The translations under genes and the position numbers were made by a program. From a virus, in the IMG/VR virus record IMGVR_UViG_3300020401_000048, positions 1 through 34,290 of that record: DNA of 34,290 bases; one strand, given 5' to 3'. The notes under the pieces are model-generated. The model had not been told where the DNA came from. It made no database searches and saw only the letters and a list, made by a program, of their open reading frames with translations. This document shows positions 3,318 through 13,356 of the stretch, in pieces. The number at the start of each line of letters is the position of its first letter. The stretch's first letter is position 1.

Positions 3318-3545
3318 ATGAACGAATCAGAATTTACCTCTGACTTAATCAAGCAGTTTCAGTTGAGGCGTTACCAGCTTGGCTTGACCCAACCCGATGT
3401 TGACCAGAAGATTGGAGTCGCAACGGGACTCTGTGCTAAATGGGAAATGGGTAATAGAAAGCCAACATTGTTTAATGCATATTGCTGGGCAGAAGCCCTT
3501 GGATGCGAGATTAAGTTGGAGGCGAAACATGATATGCGGGATTGA
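3318..3545 (+). CDS. XRE/Cro-type helix-turn-helix regulator
   Basis: This encodes a 75-residue DNA-binding protein with a Cro/C1-type HTH. An IKQFQLRRYQLGLTQPDVDQ helix pair (about residues 11-30) is followed by a recognition helix region (IGVATGLCAKWEMGNRKP, 32-49). It is small enough to be an HTH alone with a short C-terminal helix. GGTGAAG lies before the ATG. It sits on the + strand facing away from the recombination operon, and it overlaps the RuvC-like gene by 17 bp. It may autoregulate the shared 64 bp divergent intergenic region and so control both the resolvase and the recombination genes (inference). Confidence 0.8.
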   Translation: MNESEFTSDLIKQFQLRRYQLGLTQPDVDQKIGVATGLCAKWEMGNRKPTLFNAYCWAEALGCEIKLEAKHDMRD

Positions 3546-4011
3546 CCCTGGCCTTACAGGAGGCATAGCGTTTCTACACGATGATGTTGTATTAGCGATA
3601 CGAACACCTGTTATTAAAGTTCAGAAAAAAAATTATCTCAACGTAGGTGAAATTGTGTCACTGCTGATGAAGCATGACCCAGACCATATTTATATTGAGA
3701 AACAACAAGCAATGCCGAGGCAAGGCGTAGCTAGTACATTTCGTACTGGTTTTGGCTACGGTGTTTACCTTGGCTTGATTATTGCATTAGGCATCAAGCA
3801 TACAGAGGTCACTGCTCGCCAATGGAAGAAAGACCTCTGTGTGCCTGCTGATAAAAATATGGCAAGAGACATAGCAACAAAACTATATCCTTATGCCTCA
3901 AGCCAATGGAAGTTAAAGTGTGAGGATGGAGTAGCTGAGTCTACTCTGATTGCTCACTGGGGGGCCAAGTTCCAAACGGATCAAAACGTCCTTCAGAAAG
4001 GGCTTCAGTAA
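3529..4011 (+). CDS. RuvC-like Holliday junction resolvase
   Basis: This encodes a 160-residue RNase H-fold nuclease. Catalytic-type acidic residues are in place: D6 in CGIDPGLTGG, E57 in IYIEKQQAMPRQG, and D133/E137 in the C-terminal DGVAES motif. Length is close to bacterial RuvC (about 170). The start at 3529 is preferred to the longer reading frame because the protein then begins directly with the first RuvC motif and GGAGG lies 8 bases upstream. It probably resolves branched recombination or replication intermediates before packaging. Its last 71 bp overlap the 3' end of the ParB-like gene on the opposite strand. Confidence 0.85.
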   Translation: MICGIDPGLTGGIAFLHDDVVLAIRTPVIKVQKKNYLNVGEIVSLLMKHDPDHIYIEKQQAMPRQGVASTFRTGFGYGVYLGLIIALGIKHTEVTARQWKKDLCVPADKNMARDIATKLYPYASSQWKLKCEDGVAESTLIAHWGAKFQTDQNVLQKGLQ

Positions 4012-6962: not shown

Positions 6963-6990
6963 GTGAACCTCCTGTGAATCTTTCACAAAA

Positions 6991-7052
6991 ATAGCCCCAC
7001 CACTTACCCGTAACTTTAGCAGAAGTCATAAACGGTTAAGCGATGAGGCTAT
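6991..7052. repeat. Nested inverted repeat A (between SSB and DUF3846-like genes)
   Basis: The outer arms ATAGCC (6991-6996) and GGCTAT (7047-7052) pair perfectly. The inner arms CTTACCCG (7003-7010) and CGGTTAAG (7033-7040) pair with one mismatch, and ACTT/AAGT pair innermost. Read on the - strand the outer arm is followed by TTTTT, so it could act as a terminator-like structure just before the next gene. Confidence 0.5.
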
Positions 7053-7053
7053 C

Positions 7054-7100
7054 TACCACCCACACCCACGTGATGAAAGGTAATCACAAAGTGGGTGGTA
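7054..7100. repeat. Perfect 10-bp inverted repeat B with nested stem
   Basis: TACCACCCAC (7054-7063) and GTGGGTGGTA (7091-7100) are perfect complements. Inside them GTGAT (7070-7074) and ATCAC (7083-7087) form a second stem. Confidence 0.65.
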
Positions 7101-7105
7101 ATGTT

Positions 7106-7155
7106 TGTGGCTAACCCTGCGAACCAAACAACACAGGACGATACCGTTAGCCACA
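7106..7155. repeat. Perfect 10-bp inverted repeat C with nested stem
   Basis: TGTGGCTAAC (7106-7115) pairs with GTTAGCCACA (7146-7155). Inside, CCTG (7116-7119) can pair with CAGG (7134-7137). Confidence 0.65.
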
Positions 7156-7160
7156 GTACC

Positions 7161-7205
7161 CCAATCTAGGCAGTAGAGGTGTCTACTGTTGGAGACCTAG
7201 ATTGG
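7161..7205. repeat. Nested hairpin D spanning the SSB stop codon
   Basis: CCAATCTAGG (7161-7170) pairs perfectly with CCTAGATTGG (7196-7205). Directly stacked inside are CAGTAGA (7171-7177) and TCTACTG (7182-7188) with a GGTG loop, and a 7-nt bulge lies on one side. The outer arm contains the ssb stop codon. There is no T-run after it, so it is not a classical intrinsic terminator. mRNA 3'-end protection or processing is possible. Confidence 0.75.
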
Positions 7206-9408: not shown

Positions 9409-9615
9409 TTAATCAACCACTTCGGTATTGTACCATTCTAGTAAATGATACCCTGCATTAAGCAAGTTGTTCATGCAATCCATAAGCTCCTCTATTAAGT
9501 AAGGACGATGAATGCTGTCTTCACCATGCTCCTTAAGCATAAGCTTGACGTAATCGTAGTTAGTGAGTTCGACACGAATTGCCATGTCCATATCAAAGTC
9601 TTTAGTCAAAGTCAT
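9409..9615 (-). CDS. Small hypothetical acidic protein (68 aa)
   Basis: This encodes 68 residues, acidic and helical, with alternating hydrophobics (YDYVKLMLKEHG, YLIEELMDCMNNLL). TAGGAGG precedes the ATG at 9615. It is the second gene of the early arm. Such acidic mini-proteins at the start of phage early regions often bind host enzymes or mimic DNA, but nothing here specifies a target. Confidence 0.6.
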   Translation of the reverse strand: MTLTKDFDMDMAIRVELTNYDYVKLMLKEHGEDSIHRPYLIEELMDCMNNLLNAGYHLLEWYNTEVVD

Positions 9616-9624
9616 ATCAGCCTC

Positions 9625-9792
9625 CTACTGAATTGTAATGTCGATAAGTGAAGCAAGTTGTCTTGCTCTGTCCCAATCACCAGATTGGATAGCCTCCTGT
9701 ATCTCGCAACGAACAATGTCATGTTCGTCAAAATGTGATGGATAGATGTCATCAATGTACTCAACAGTCTCAATGTTATCTTTGATAGTCAT
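9625..9792 (-). CDS. First early gene, small acidic protein (55 aa)
   Basis: This encodes 55 residues, strongly acidic (ETVEYIDDIYPSHFDEHD). The second half resembles a short helical repeat unit (EAIQSGDWDRARQLASL) of the kind found in TPR-like helices. The start at 9792 follows AAAGGAGAA; the longer frame begins inside the structured non-coding region and is not supported. It is the most promoter-proximal gene of the leftward arm. Confidence 0.6.
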   Translation of the reverse strand: MTIKDNIETVEYIDDIYPSHFDEHDIVRCEIQEAIQSGDWDRARQLASLIDITIQ

Positions 9793-9892
9793 GTCAATTT
9801 CTCCTTTACGAATGACAATTAAAAGAACACACACGTTTGTTTTTGCGTGATTGCGAACCACCCAAACTGCTCTCGAACAGGTGCAAGCGCAA

Positions 9893-9910
9893 AAGGGGTT
9901 TCACCCCCTT
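9893..9910. repeat. GC hairpin with alternative pairing
   Basis: AAGGGG (9893-9898) pairs with CCCCTT (9905-9910). The loop's TTTCA can instead pair with TGAAA just downstream, giving two mutually exclusive folds, as in attenuator-like switches. Confidence 0.5.
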
Positions 9911-9929
9911 GAAAGGAAGTAGTACAACT

Positions 9930-9980
9930 CATCTCTTTTTTTCCCTTCTTAAAGACGAGACTTACGGAAAAAAAGAGATG
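9930..9980. repeat. Perfect 15-bp inverted repeat with T7/A7 tracts
   Basis: CATCTCTTTTTTTCC (9930-9944) is the exact reverse complement of GGAAAAAAAGAGATG (9966-9980), with a 21-nt loop. The A/T tract is inside the stem, so a T-run occurs in either transcript. It may act as a bidirectional transcription barrier or a protein-binding cruciform. Confidence 0.7.
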
Positions 9981-9984
9981 CCAT

Positions 9985-10002
9985 GTCGAGCTACGTCTCG
10001 AC
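9985..10002. repeat. Short hairpin GTCGAG/CTCGAC
   Basis: A 6-bp perfect stem (9985-9990 with 9997-10002) closes a 6-nt loop, 4 bp after the previous repeat. Confidence 0.5.
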
Positions 10003-10045
10003 TCAATTAAATAAACTTGCTTTTTTTGTGCTTGAGATTAAGGTT

Positions 10046-10072
10046 CTTGCTACTCATACCTGCAGTAGCAAG
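10046..10072. repeat. Perfect 9-bp hairpin CTTGCTACT/AGTAGCAAG
   Basis: Arms 10046-10054 and 10064-10072 flank a 9-nt loop. The flanks also carry an AAGGTTCTT direct repeat (10040-10048 and 10070-10078). Confidence 0.6.
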
Positions 10073-10095
10073 GTTCTTTAGCGGACGCCTGTTGG

Positions 10096-10144
10096 CCTCT
10101 TACGTGAGACACCAGCTTGCGAGCTGGATGTCGCAACTTAGAGG
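10096..10144. repeat. Nested hairpin with TGCG tetraloop
   Basis: CCAGCT (10112-10117) and AGCTGG (10122-10127) close a TGCG loop. GACA (10108-10111) and TGTC (10129-10132) extend the stem past a one-base bulge. CCTCT (10096-10100) and AGAGG (10140-10144) close the outside. Confidence 0.6.
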
Positions 10145-10198
10145 TGAGAGTAGTTTAAAACCGCAGGTATAATCTCGCAAAAATAAATGTGTGTGTGG

Positions 10199-10235
10199 GT
10201 CGGCCCCGCCGACACTCGGGCATTCCTTGCCCGAG
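10199..10235. repeat. Two adjacent GC-rich hairpins
   Basis: GTCGGC (10199-10204) pairs with GCCGAC (10208-10213) around CCC. One base later CTCGGGCA (10215-10222) pairs with TGCCCGAG (10228-10235) around a 5-nt loop. All pairs are Watson-Crick. Confidence 0.7.
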
Positions 10236-10268
10236 ACAACTAGACCGTCTGTTAAGACAAATTCCAAG

Positions 10269-10313
10269 CAACGGCTCGATGCCGTTGTGCGGAAGAGGAA
10301 CCTACGCAACGGC
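10269..10313. repeat. CAACGGC hairpin with a second copy of one arm
   Basis: CAACGGC (10269-10275) pairs with GCCGTTG (10281-10287) around a TCGAT loop. CAACGGC recurs at 10307-10313 and could compete for the same partner, giving two alternative folds. Confidence 0.6.
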
Positions 10314-10321
10314 TTTTTGCC

Positions 10322-10367
10322 CACTAGCAACATGGAAAATTAACGTCGAGCTTAAGGTAAGCTAGTG
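10322..10367. repeat. CACTAGC/GCTAGTG stem with inner hairpin
   Basis: CACTAGC (10322-10328) pairs with GCTAGTG (10361-10367). AGCTTA (10349-10354) pairs with TAAGCT (10358-10363) and shares bases with the outer arm, so the two compete. TTGCTAGTG at 10454-10462 is a further complement of the first arm. Confidence 0.55.
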
Positions 10368-10389
10368 ATAGTCTGGAGTGTGAGTGGCA

Positions 10390-10408
10390 GGCGACCTACT
10401 GGATCGCC
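10390..10408. repeat. Short hairpin GGCGA/TCGCC
   Basis: GGCGA (10390-10394) pairs with TCGCC (10404-10408). An inner CC/GG pair closes TACT with a single-base bulge. Confidence 0.45.
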
Positions 10409-10422
10409 AACGAAACGGAAGA

Positions 10423-10489
10423 CAATCACCCAACCGAACTTAATTTTGTATACTTGCTAGTGACGCAAAAAACGGCCGTTAGGTGATTG
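10423..10489. repeat. CAATCACC/GGTGATTG stem enclosing a palindrome
   Basis: CAATCACC (10423-10430) pairs with GGTGATTG (10482-10489), extended inward by AAC/GTT. AACGGCCGTT (10471-10480) inside is a perfect 10-bp palindrome. The right arm shares TTG with the next hairpin. Confidence 0.55.
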
Positions 10490-10522
10490 ACTTACGAACC
10501 CCTCGATGGGGTCGAAAGTCAA
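10487..10522. repeat. Strong hairpin TTGACTT...AAGTCAA with CCCC/GGGG
   Basis: TTGACTT (10487-10493) pairs with AAGTCAA (10516-10522). Inside, CCCC (10499-10502) pairs with GGGG (10508-10511) around a TCGAT loop, the same loop sequence as the hairpin at 10269-10287. Confidence 0.65.
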
Positions 10523-10523
10523 C

Positions 10524-10566
10524 GTCCTCATCATACAAAAAGCCAAAAGCAAACTATGATGAGGAC
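10524..10566. repeat. Perfect 12-bp inverted repeat
   Basis: GTCCTCATCATA (10524-10535) is the exact reverse complement of TATGATGAGGAC (10555-10566). The 19-nt purine-rich loop is A-rich (CAAAAAGCCAAAAGC). Confidence 0.7.
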
Positions 10567-10567
10567 A

Positions 10568-10607
10568 TTCGCTGTAAAGCGAACGGACGGCAAAGCCCCG
10601 ATTTTGC
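10568..10607. repeat. Two last small hairpins before the late promoter
   Basis: TTCGCT (10568-10573) pairs with AGCGAA (10578-10583) around GTAA. GCAAA (10590-10594) pairs with TTTGC (10603-10607). The promoter begins 11 bp further on. Confidence 0.55.
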
Positions 10608-10617
10608 AGAATGTGTC

Positions 10618-10648
10618 TTGACAGCTAGTTAAGATTGGTATGTATAAT
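10618..10648 (+). promoter_or_regulatory. Candidate late promoter upstream of terS
   Basis: TTGACA (10618-10623) and TATAAT (10643-10648) are both perfect consensus hexamers. The spacer is 19 bp, two longer than ideal. TG directly precedes the -10 box. The predicted start near 10655 gives a roughly 25-nt leader to the terS ATG. The long spacer could make it activator-dependent, which is inference. Confidence 0.6.
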
Positions 10649-10679
10649 CGTCCGTAGACGCAGTGATTGGCCCACGGAT

Positions 10680-11114
10680 ATGACAAAAGCAAATACAGCA
10701 CAACAAGAGAAATACAAAGCAGGGATTGTTCCGATGGAAGACATCGAGAAACACGCCCCTGCTGCACAAGTTGGGAACGAGAAACTGACGGAAAGCCAAG
10801 CAGAGTTGGTTCATGCAATCTTGCATAACGGTTGCAACCCCAGTGAAGCAGCACAGCAGTTGGGTAGGAATAAAGCTTGGGCGTACAATACACTGAAGAA
10901 ACAACACGTTATCGAATACCGACAGCAGTTGGCTATGATGACTTTGGGATGGGACGCCACACAAGCAATGGCAACTATGCGTGAGTTGCTGGGCAGCAAG
11001 TCTCAGTACGTCAGGCTCGAAGCCGCCAAGGACCTGATGGACAGGGCAGGATTCAGACAGGACGTTGTGCGGACTCCGTCCACCGCTGTACAGATAAACT
11101 TCAACGTAGACTAG
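10680..11114 (+). CDS. Terminase small subunit
   Basis: This encodes a 144-residue protein. The middle contains a helix-turn-helix-like segment (LTESQAELVHAILHNG, PSEAAQQLGRNKAWAYNTL) of the type that recognises the packaging site. Further helices follow (ATQAMATMRELLGSK, YVRLEAAKDLMDRAG) as in phage TerS oligomerisation domains. Position before terL supports the call. The ATG at 10680 is chosen; the longer frame starts with TTG inside the promoter. The ribosome site is weak (GGA only), so initiation may be inefficient or structure-dependent. The adjacent hairpin array is a candidate binding region for this protein. Confidence 0.8.
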   Translation: MTKANTAQQEKYKAGIVPMEDIEKHAPAAQVGNEKLTESQAELVHAILHNGCNPSEAAQQLGRNKAWAYNTLKKQHVIEYRQQLAMMTLGWDATQAMATMRELLGSKSQYVRLEAAKDLMDRAGFRQDVVRTPSTAVQINFNVD

Positions 11115-11811: not shown

Positions 11812-13356
11812 ATGAATCTAGACTATAAACCCCCTGGCCCTATAGCCAAGGCATTTATGAAGGATGAATCGTTTGTCCGTGGAATACGAGGCCCAGTTGG
11901 CTCTGGGAAGTCTGTAACGTGTTGCATGGAAATAATGCGGAGGGCTGTCAATCAAGCCCCTAATTCTGCTGGGGTACGCAGAACACGATGGGCAGTTATT
12001 CGTAATACCAATCCCCAACTGAAAACCACGACTATTAAGACGTGGCGGGATTGGTTCGGGGATGAAGTTGGCAAGTTTGTGTGGTCTCCTCCGTATACAC
12101 ATCTTGTCAACTTCTCTCTTGCCGATAAAACATCTGTTGAATGTGAAGTCATATTTTTGGCTTTAGACAAGCAAGAAGATGTTAAAAAGCTATTGTCTCT
12201 TGAATTAACTGGTGTTTGGCTTAATGAAGCAAGAGAGCTTCCAAAGTCTATAGTTGACGCTTGCACCATGCGCTGTGGTCGTTTTCCGTCTATGAGAGAT
12301 GGTGGGCCTAGCTGGTATGGGGTAATTATGGACACAAACTCCCCAGATGAGACACATTGGTGGGGAATTATGGCTGGTGAAGTGCCAGCACCCGAATATA
12401 TGGCCTCAGAAGAAAAACTTTTGCTTGTAAAGCCCGATGATTGGACATTTTTTGCTCAAGAAGGGGCTATGAAAGAGAAAAAAGACGAAAATGGTCAGCT
12501 TTTAGGCTACGAAAAGAACAAAAAGGCTGAAAATACGCCAAATTTACAGTCAGATTACTATGAGAAAATAATTCTAGGCAAAACGCCCCAATGGATTAAG
12601 GTTTATGTGCTAAATCAGTACCAAGCTCTTATGGACGGTAAAGCTGTCTACCAATCTTTTAGAAAGGAGAGCCACGTTGCTGCATCGCCAATCGAACCGA
12701 TTGATGGGATTGAAGTTATTGTCGGCATCGACTTTGGCCGCACGCCATCGGCAATCTTTACACAACAGTTGCACTCAGGACGCTGGACAGTCTTTCACGA
12801 AGTCATCGGGCAAGATATGGGGGCTGGACGATTCGCAGAAGTTCTCAAACGAGAAATCAGCAGAAACGACTGGGAAAAACACACACTGAAGTTTATAGGT
12901 GATCCTGCTGGTAATCAGATGGCACAAACATCAGAGCAAACGCCCTTTATGATACTCAGGGCGGCAGGCATAAATGCCTATCCAGCACCAAGTAATGATG
13001 CTGTTATGCGTGTTGAAGCGGTTGAGGGTGTTCTTAATCGAATGACAGATGGCTACCCATCAATGAAAATTAGCCCAAGCTGCACAGTTCTGATTGCTGG
13101 CTTTGAGGGTGGATACCAATACAAGCGCACTTACAATATGGGCAGTGAAAGATATGATGAACGGCCTAGCAAGAATCGGTTCTCACATATACATGACGCC
13201 TTACAATATGCGTTATTAGGTGGTGGTGAAGGACGGAGAGTGGTGTACGGTTTAGGGAAGTCCGCTTCCCATACAACCGTTGAAAGGGTTGGCTCACCTT
13301 TGTCCAGACAGAGAAAAGCCAGATTAGCTAGAGGAAGAAGAGTTGCTGGTTTATGA
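11812..13356 (+). CDS. terL: Terminase large subunit (packaging ATPase/nuclease)
   Basis: This encodes a 514-residue packaging motor. The ATPase domain has a Walker A GPVGSGKS (residues 27-34) and a Walker B-like ELTGVWLNEAR with E139 as the likely catalytic carboxylate. The RNase H-like nuclease domain has GIDFGR with D307, GDPAG with D364, and a C-terminal HD with D462, the three-acid pattern of TerL nucleases. It translocates DNA into the prohead through the portal and cuts it. Length matches podovirus-type TerL. The last bases overlap the next gene by 4 bp (ATGA). Confidence 0.93.
   Translation: MNLDYKPPGPIAKAFMKDESFVRGIRGPVGSGKSVTCCMEIMRRAVNQAPNSAGVRRTRWAVIRNTNPQLKTTTIKTWRDWFGDEVGKFVWSPPYTHLVNFSLADKTSVECEVIFLALDKQEDVKKLLSLELTGVWLNEARELPKSIVDACTMRCGRFPSMRDGGPSWYGVIMDTNSPDETHWWGIMAGEVPAPEYMASEEKLLLVKPDDWTFFAQEGAMKEKKDENGQLLGYEKNKKAENTPNLQSDYYEKIILGKTPQWIKVYVLNQYQALMDGKAVYQSFRKESHVAASPIEPIDGIEVIVGIDFGRTPSAIFTQQLHSGRWTVFHEVIGQDMGAGRFAEVLKREISRNDWEKHTLKFIGDPAGNQMAQTSEQTPFMILRAAGINAYPAPSNDAVMRVEAVEGVLNRMTDGYPSMKISPSCTVLIAGFEGGYQYKRTYNMGSERYDERPSKNRFSHIHDALQYALLGGGEGRRVVYGLGKSASHTTVERVGSPLSRQRKARLARGRRVAGL

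Follow-up and report, generated by a model that had tools for sequence, protein, structure and literature searches.

A polymorphic non-coding locus upstream of terS in marine podoviruses and the large structured RNAs it probably encodes

In an uncultured marine podovirus, about 800 bases of the non-coding DNA that separates the two divergent operons very probably specify, on the + strand, a large multibranched RNA (9824–10197) followed by further structured modules (10198–10607). The window analysed here is the whole 34.3 kb record IMGVR_UViG_3300020401_000048. It is well supported that RNAs of several types share a terminal stem, P1 (5' strand ACACACAC-like, 3' strand GUGUGUGU), and that the window RNA is one divergent type among them. 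Our conclusion is that this non-coding locus is polymorphic and that the large, structured P1-clamped RNAs specified there constitute a new phage RNA family. For the locus as a whole we tentatively favour a polymorphic RNA locus transcribed from the + strand whose product acts in trans as a decoy or takeover RNA.

The structured island lies in the gap that separates the early (−) operon from terS and the late (+) operon. Since the first − strand gene starts at the ATG at 9783, the non-coding stretch is 9784–10679. The late genes form a single long + operon, and besides the terminase subunits the + strand encodes a T7-like head-tail adaptor, capsid and tail proteins. The − strand encodes a YqaJ exonuclease, a Sak annealing protein, SSB and a ParB-like protein. 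A gene for a RuvC-like Holliday junction resolvase (3397–4011) stands on the + strand within this otherwise − strand operon. No polymerase, primase, helicase, initiator or RNA polymerase was recognised among the phage's predicted proteins, and ARAGORN found no tRNA or tmRNA in the window. The first − strand genes beside the island (9409–9783) are highly variable among close relatives, so the variable zone reaches left beyond the RNA. By TerL, the nearest named phages are Pelagibacter phage EXVC031P Hodr (56%) and Methylophilales phage MEP301 (40%), and at least 80 IMG/VR relatives have TerL identities of 75–100%. The sole match in a MAG (TMED123, Flavobacteriales, TerL 55%) was too weak for naming a host.

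The + strand of 9880–10640 folds at −289.8 kcal/mol, compared with −213.3 kcal/mol for dinucleotide shuffles (z −12.0), and the − strand at −280.3 kcal/mol (z −8.0, same control). Half by half, z is −10.7 for 9824–10197 and −10.0 for 10198–10616, and the two most stable 120-nt + strand segments of the entire window start at 10471 and 10201. An earlier note on this DNA had described about fifteen consecutive stem-loops here, at a density far above that of a terminator pair. Every inverted repeat it listed is present: three are perfect, with 15 of 15 bp (9930–9944/9966–9980), 9 of 9 bp (10046–10054/10064–10072) and 8 of 8 bp (10215–10222/10228–10235); the CAACGGC/GCCGTTG repeat lies at 10269–10275/10281–10287; and a 15-nt repeat at 10521–10535/10555–10569 is 93% paired and contains 12 perfect pairs. 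The competing arms are equally real (two copies of CAACGGC for a single GCCGTTG; CACTAGC with two partners), and the z values of both strands place the density beyond chance. The shuffled sequences fold far worse than the natural one, and compensatory changes are present in relatives (see below), so both checks that the note had proposed leave its reading of a structured region standing. The arrangement is nevertheless not a row of hairpins: two multibranched folds contain most of the arms in nested form. For the left half at least, an array of independent stem-loops is wrong, as this half is a single structure closed by P1.

Nor is the island the sole structured gap. A second strongly structured non-coding element of 210 nt (6987–7196, − strand, z −7.5) lies between the SSB gene and the next early gene; it is homologous in two related loci (L005 and L006, 78%), and a third (L003) has pieces of it with the middle missing.

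The predicted architecture of the island and its neighbours is given in Table 1. In P1, ACACACAC pairs with GTGTGTGT, and the duplex of 9828–9850 with 10173–10197 has a predicted energy of −38.9 kcal/mol, compared with −19.1 kcal/mol for the control. A possible pseudoknot, ATACCTGC/GCAGGTAT (10056/10160), is present in the window and absent from the two other RNAs of the window type (L093 and L094); because these do not keep it, we treat it as chance. A − strand open reading frame (10100–10333, 77 aa) was set aside as unlikely to code for a protein, since it is crossed by compensatory changes and by modules that are replaced in relatives.

Table 1. Predicted features of the island and flanking genes (positions in the window)
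Feature	Positions	Strand	Remarks
First gene of the divergent − operon	9625–9783	−	ATG at 9783, RBS AAAGGAG; differs between close relatives
Left RNA, window type	9824–10197	+	One multibranched structure closed by P1; z −10.7, covariation, B-type HMM end to end
P1 5' strand (CACACACG...TTTTTGCG)	9828–9850	+	Partner 10173–10197
Long-range helix 9877–9883/10086–10092	9877–10092	+	Encloses the 5' domain; 6/7 pairs doubly changed
Helix CAAGCGCAAA/TTTGTGCTTG, with helix 9911–9920/10015–10024 stacked within	9884–10034	+	From the window-type covariation alignment
Perfect 15-bp stem (listed in the earlier note)	9930–9980	+	7/15 pairs doubly changed
Hairpin module CATGTCGAG..CTCGACTCAATTAAATAA	9985–10002	+	Also in B-type RNAs, on different stems
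Long hairpin 10036–10054/10064–10082	10036–10082	+	6/17 pairs doubly changed
3' domain, 10095–10100/10140–10145 and 10108–10117/10122–10132	10095–10145	+	Longer branched arm instead in L093, L094
P1 3' strand (TCTCGCAAAAATAAATGTGTGTGTG)	10173–10197	+	Contains the (GT)4+ run
Right structured region	10198–10607	+	Second set of nested helices; modular, variable in relatives
Right-region hairpins	10199–10213, 10215–10235, 10268–10288, 10487–10522, 10524–10566, 10569–10582	+	
Right-region nested helices	10300–10484	+	
Recurring module GGAGnG..GGCAGGCGACCTACTGGATCGCCAACGAA..GGAA	10378–10424	+	
TCGAT-loop hairpin	10499–10513	+	Loop recurs on four different stems
Promoter-like TTGACA-N19-TATAAT	10618–10648	+	Just upstream of terS
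terS (small terminase)	10680–11114	+	PHROG 2538, E 2e-8; first late gene beyond the island
TerL	11812–13356	+	

For comparison we took the DNA upstream of 124 TerS-bearing loci, which gave 57 non-redundant loci with the window included, and scanned the folding of all relatives with a composition regression. A (GT)4+ run, the 3' strand of P1, occurs in 55 of the 57 loci at 154–628 nt upstream of TerS; the remaining two (L086 and L096) have only GTGTGT and no long GT run. The 5' strand of P1 lies approximately 220–460 nt upstream of the run. P1 is clearly more stable than its shuffled control in 52 of the 57 loci. The five exceptions are L086 (negligible margin), L096, L103 and L130 (truncated contigs), and L049, which is yet found by the covariance model of the A1 type (E 1e-6). 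The inner part of P1 varies by type with complementarity kept (CGCAAAAATAAAT, AACCATTTTT and GGGCCAATCA, each with its partner). The features by which we propose to define the family, a (GT)n 3' strand, a paired AC-rich 5' strand and a position upstream of terS, are all found in the window. Motif scans that were independent of TerS returned 58 checkable matches, all 58 of which have TerS downstream on the same strand within 800 nt.

Covariation argues for the predicted helices. Within the window type (the window, L093 and L094), 96.7% of alignment cells pair, a percentage inflated by the derivation of the structures from the same alignments. Both sides have changed in at least one sequence at 40 of the 137 pairs of the window type, compared with 15.3 after column shuffling (0 of 500 shuffles reach 40) and at most 6 with slid partners. 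The sister A1 type, represented by ten sequences, has 62 cells in which both sides have changed, compared with 23.7 after shuffling (0 of 500) and at most 19 when slid. As the sequences share ancestry, these shuffle counts are not probabilities.

The strand of the folded molecule can be read from its wobble pairs and loops. If structures are predicted from Watson–Crick pairs alone, the wobbles seen in them suit the + strand at 37 pairs and the − strand at 8 (p 3e-5), and prediction on the reverse complement agrees. In P1, the changes on the AC-rich strand are from A to G and from C to T, which keeps G.U or U.G opposite a constant GUGUGU. GNRA tetraloops number 17 on the + strand and 5 on the − strand (p 0.017), or 11 and 2 on stems of at least 6 bp. 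In these predicted structures the wobble and GNRA bias favours a + strand RNA. Among its proposals, which included a family of small RNAs, the earlier note had named an element of folded single-stranded DNA or RNA; the RNA part of that proposal is supported, and a folded + single-strand DNA, which would give some of the same strand bias, is less likely. The same asymmetry bears on the idea that the structure serves at the DNA level only, as a cruciform or palindromic recombination substrate in which (GT)n/(AC)n is a hotspot for the annealing protein and the hairpins are by-products. Cassette breakpoints are indeed sharp (see below), the phage has a Sak/YqaJ recombination module, and (GT)n tracts favour RecA-type pairing. 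A double-stranded cruciform, however, predicts symmetry between the strands, and the compensatory changes lie deep within the RNA, distant from the breakpoints. We consider a DNA-only structure very improbable.

Homology searches connect the RNA types through intermediates. A covariance model built from A1 found the A2, A3 and L043-like types at full length (E 4e-23 to 3e-4) and matched one B type at E 9e-4; it gave no credible match in the window, including with filters off. A nucleotide HMM of the B types, built without the window types and without the chimera L090, matched L094 (5e-6), L093 (1e-5) and the window (9828–10197, E 0.006) over essentially their full lengths. Chimeras exist in nature: L112 and L117 join A3 ends to B-type interiors, and L090 joins window-type ends to a B interior. 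Taken together, the HMM matches and the chimeras place the window RNA in the family as a divergent type that B types and chimeras connect to the A types.

Known families did not account for these RNAs. Neither in the window nor in ten relatives did any Rfam 15 family reach its gathering score, and at E up to 5 there were two chance-level matches alone (mir-3613 and L2-Alphaproteobacteria). A blastn search of 50,697 phage records returned nothing for the window island or for the RNAs of two relatives, and nothing relevant was found in the part of the literature on pelagiphage non-coding RNA and RNA structure that was covered. The divergent gap of Hodr (L082:5588–5924) holds a very long hairpin (z −5.0) without the (GT)n landmark, and the Hodr record lists no RNA feature there. 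The corresponding gap of MEP301 was not structured when its folding was tested.

The right region is a mosaic. Pieces that recur in it are GGAGCG..GAAGTGGAA, the TCGAT-loop hairpin, GACCAA-loop hairpins (on five different stems) and GGAGGGTGCTAATAGCGTG; the two hairpins with TCGAT loops that had been pointed out earlier were confirmed. In the module at 10378–10424, GCGA/TCGC is replaced by GCAA/TTGC in L088 and L092. Downstream of the modules, the TTGACA-N19-TATAAT site before terS has a mean best score of 12.7 across relatives, compared with 8.4 for shuffles, and is the only strong σ70-like site in the divergent region, present in essentially all relatives. Across relatives, σ70-like promoters gave no signal over shuffles, whether for the − operon or for transcription of the island from the + strand. 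The two arms of an inverted repeat, ACGGACG/CGTCCGT (10583–10589 and 10649–10655), stand on either side of the terS promoter; several relatives keep this repeat, which is a possible operator. A terminator scan found no + strand terminator in the island, and none separates the island from terS. An intrinsic terminator pair was likewise rejected: three were found where shuffles gave 1.9, no clear excess, and because the flanking genes diverge, no gene ends at the island.

The position of all 58 checkable motif matches upstream of terS is also compatible with a role in cis. The island RNA could be a leader of the late operon that modifies RNA polymerase or gates terS and the structural genes by antitermination or attenuation, as in HK022 put. 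Its place immediately upstream of terS on the same strand and the single long late operon would suit such a leader, and as no RNA polymerase was identifiable, the phage would need control of the host enzyme. Against this, the near-perfect promoter sits between island and terS, so transcription of the late genes does not depend on the island. Leaders that act by antitermination also tend to be short and conserved, unlike this large island that is swapped wholesale, and a leader function seems unlikely.

The exchange is seen in pairwise identities computed in 60-nt bins. Between the window and L090, identity is 97–100% in the P1 ends and the right region and 12–63% in the RNA interior. Compared with L086, L088, L089 and L092, the window is 83–98% identical in terS and its promoter and mostly 22–60% in the island, with a sharp break at approximately 10580. 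In L087 the island is 97–100% identical and terS 88–95% in most bins, and the gene on the left is unalignable. L087 (from the same contig as L002) also has a 137-nt insert at window position 10584, with further hairpins that resemble modules of other relatives. The island thus travels as a cassette between near-identical phages, and inner modules travel too.

The same pattern weighs against a packaging element, whether as a pac site for TerS or as an RNA comparable to phi29 pRNA that works with the adjacent terminase. The island does adjoin terS and terL and always lies upstream of terS. However, phages with islands of unrelated sequence have TerS proteins that are 97–99% identical, and a recognition site of a nearly constant TerS is unlikely to be the part that is swapped. 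phi29 pRNA is an Rfam family without a match in the window or the ten relatives; in addition, the phage here carries TerS, which phi29-type motors are not known to have. A role in packaging is thus quite unlikely.

Transcription diverges only at the island, where cumulative GC skew also has a local minimum, and this raises the question of an origin element. Such an element could be a structured pre-primer RNA from the + strand, on the model of ColE1 RNA II, or a folded DNA strand to which host primase or polymerase is recruited. ColE1-like RNA-primed origins have a structured primer RNA, an antisense regulator and an RNase H site, and by analogy a large structured + strand RNA would be compatible with one, though only compatible. 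Cassette swapping would then alter the copy-control or incompatibility type. With YqaJ, Sak, SSB, the resolvase and the ParB-like protein as the only such proteins recognised, the phage would have to use a host-driven origin; the related phage MEP301 is also without polymerases (PMC8024684). The skew minimum, however, is equally expected from divergent gene orientation alone. DnaA boxes are not really enriched or clustered (4 in 32.0 kb of islands from the 57 loci, compared with 7 in 130.7 kb of background), and the islands share no sequence core of the kind that origins normally keep. An origin is improbable, and neither this proposal of the earlier note nor its TerS packaging site gained positive evidence here.

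We return to the reading of a polymorphic locus for a trans-acting RNA. Phages of the marine podovirus family swap whole islands and inner modules by recombination at one fixed site between early and late genes. The + strand RNA would be transcribed during infection and act in trans: its helices, which vary, and its recurring loops would bind factors of the host or of competing phages as a decoy, in counter-defence or in host takeover. Cassette swapping would alter the target specificity. The production of the island RNA is the weakest link of this reading, and the missing promoter signal for an island transcript and the lack of a terminator before terS count against it. That the RNA is a trans-acting decoy for host factors or defences is a tentative assignment made by analogy; the earlier suggestion of an element that titrates host factors fits the exchange pattern. 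We favour a decoy because wholesale exchange of alleles at a fixed site in near-identical phages usually signals selection of an arms-race or immunity type, and because phage RNA decoys exist, the pseudo-ToxI repeats of phage TE being a precedent (PMC5086642). Swapping of this kind is diversifying exchange, which leaves the target itself unspecified. Fixed-site variable loci of pelagiphages have so far been described for proteins and read as driven by an arms race (PMC10504331). A hypervariable locus with RNA alleles, in which modules on a P1-clamped scaffold are shuffled between phages and thereby change target specificity, is possible but doubtful. If true, it would parallel, in RNA, the anti-defence or tail-fibre loci that other phages swap, and would suggest that hypervariable phage loci need not encode proteins. 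The locus adds an RNA family in dozens of marine podovirus contigs, with a (GU)n-clamped P1 as landmark and a fixed genomic address; together with natural chimeras that mark the interchangeable modules, these make function testable by cassette swaps. Annotation of genes alone overlooks such islands, as the Hodr record exemplifies.

There are few phage RNAs as large and structured as GOLLD and ROOL, which assemble into homo-oligomeric cages. Like the island RNA, they are large, multibranched, phage-encoded non-coding RNAs defined by covariation, and GOLLD, among these ornate phage and prophage RNAs, has one conserved and one variable part (PMC12286853). The island RNA has no Rfam 15 match and so is a member of neither; it is shorter (about 225–460 nt per P1-closed unit), and no tRNA lies in the window, whereas GOLLD and ROOL are often, though not always, near phage tRNA genes. 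It also differs in its fixed place between divergent operons upstream of terS, its (GU)n-clamped P1 and its allelic cassette exchange. phi29 pRNA works with the packaging motor, bound to the portal and packaging ATPase. It too is a phage RNA gene whose structure is more conserved than its sequence, and the island adjoins terminase genes; phi29, however, is without TerS, the island has no match to the pRNA family, and islands are swapped while TerS is nearly unchanged. HK022 put consists of structured RNA elements at the start of a phage operon, two short hairpins of approximately 70 nt, in contrast to an island of hundreds of nucleotides that is mosaic and has a promoter between it and the late genes. 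The pseudo-ToxI RNA of phage TE, likewise non-coding, counteracts a defence ribonuclease of the host, and a phage can gain it through recombination (PMC5086642). ToxI repeats a single small pseudoknot in tandem; the island is without a comparable tandem repeat, and no toxin target is assigned to it. HTVC010P-type pelagiphages likewise have a fixed locus that is variable among otherwise similar marine podoviruses, but their hypervariable regions code for proteins (virion core, tail and lectin genes; PMC10504331), whereas the island is non-coding and structured.
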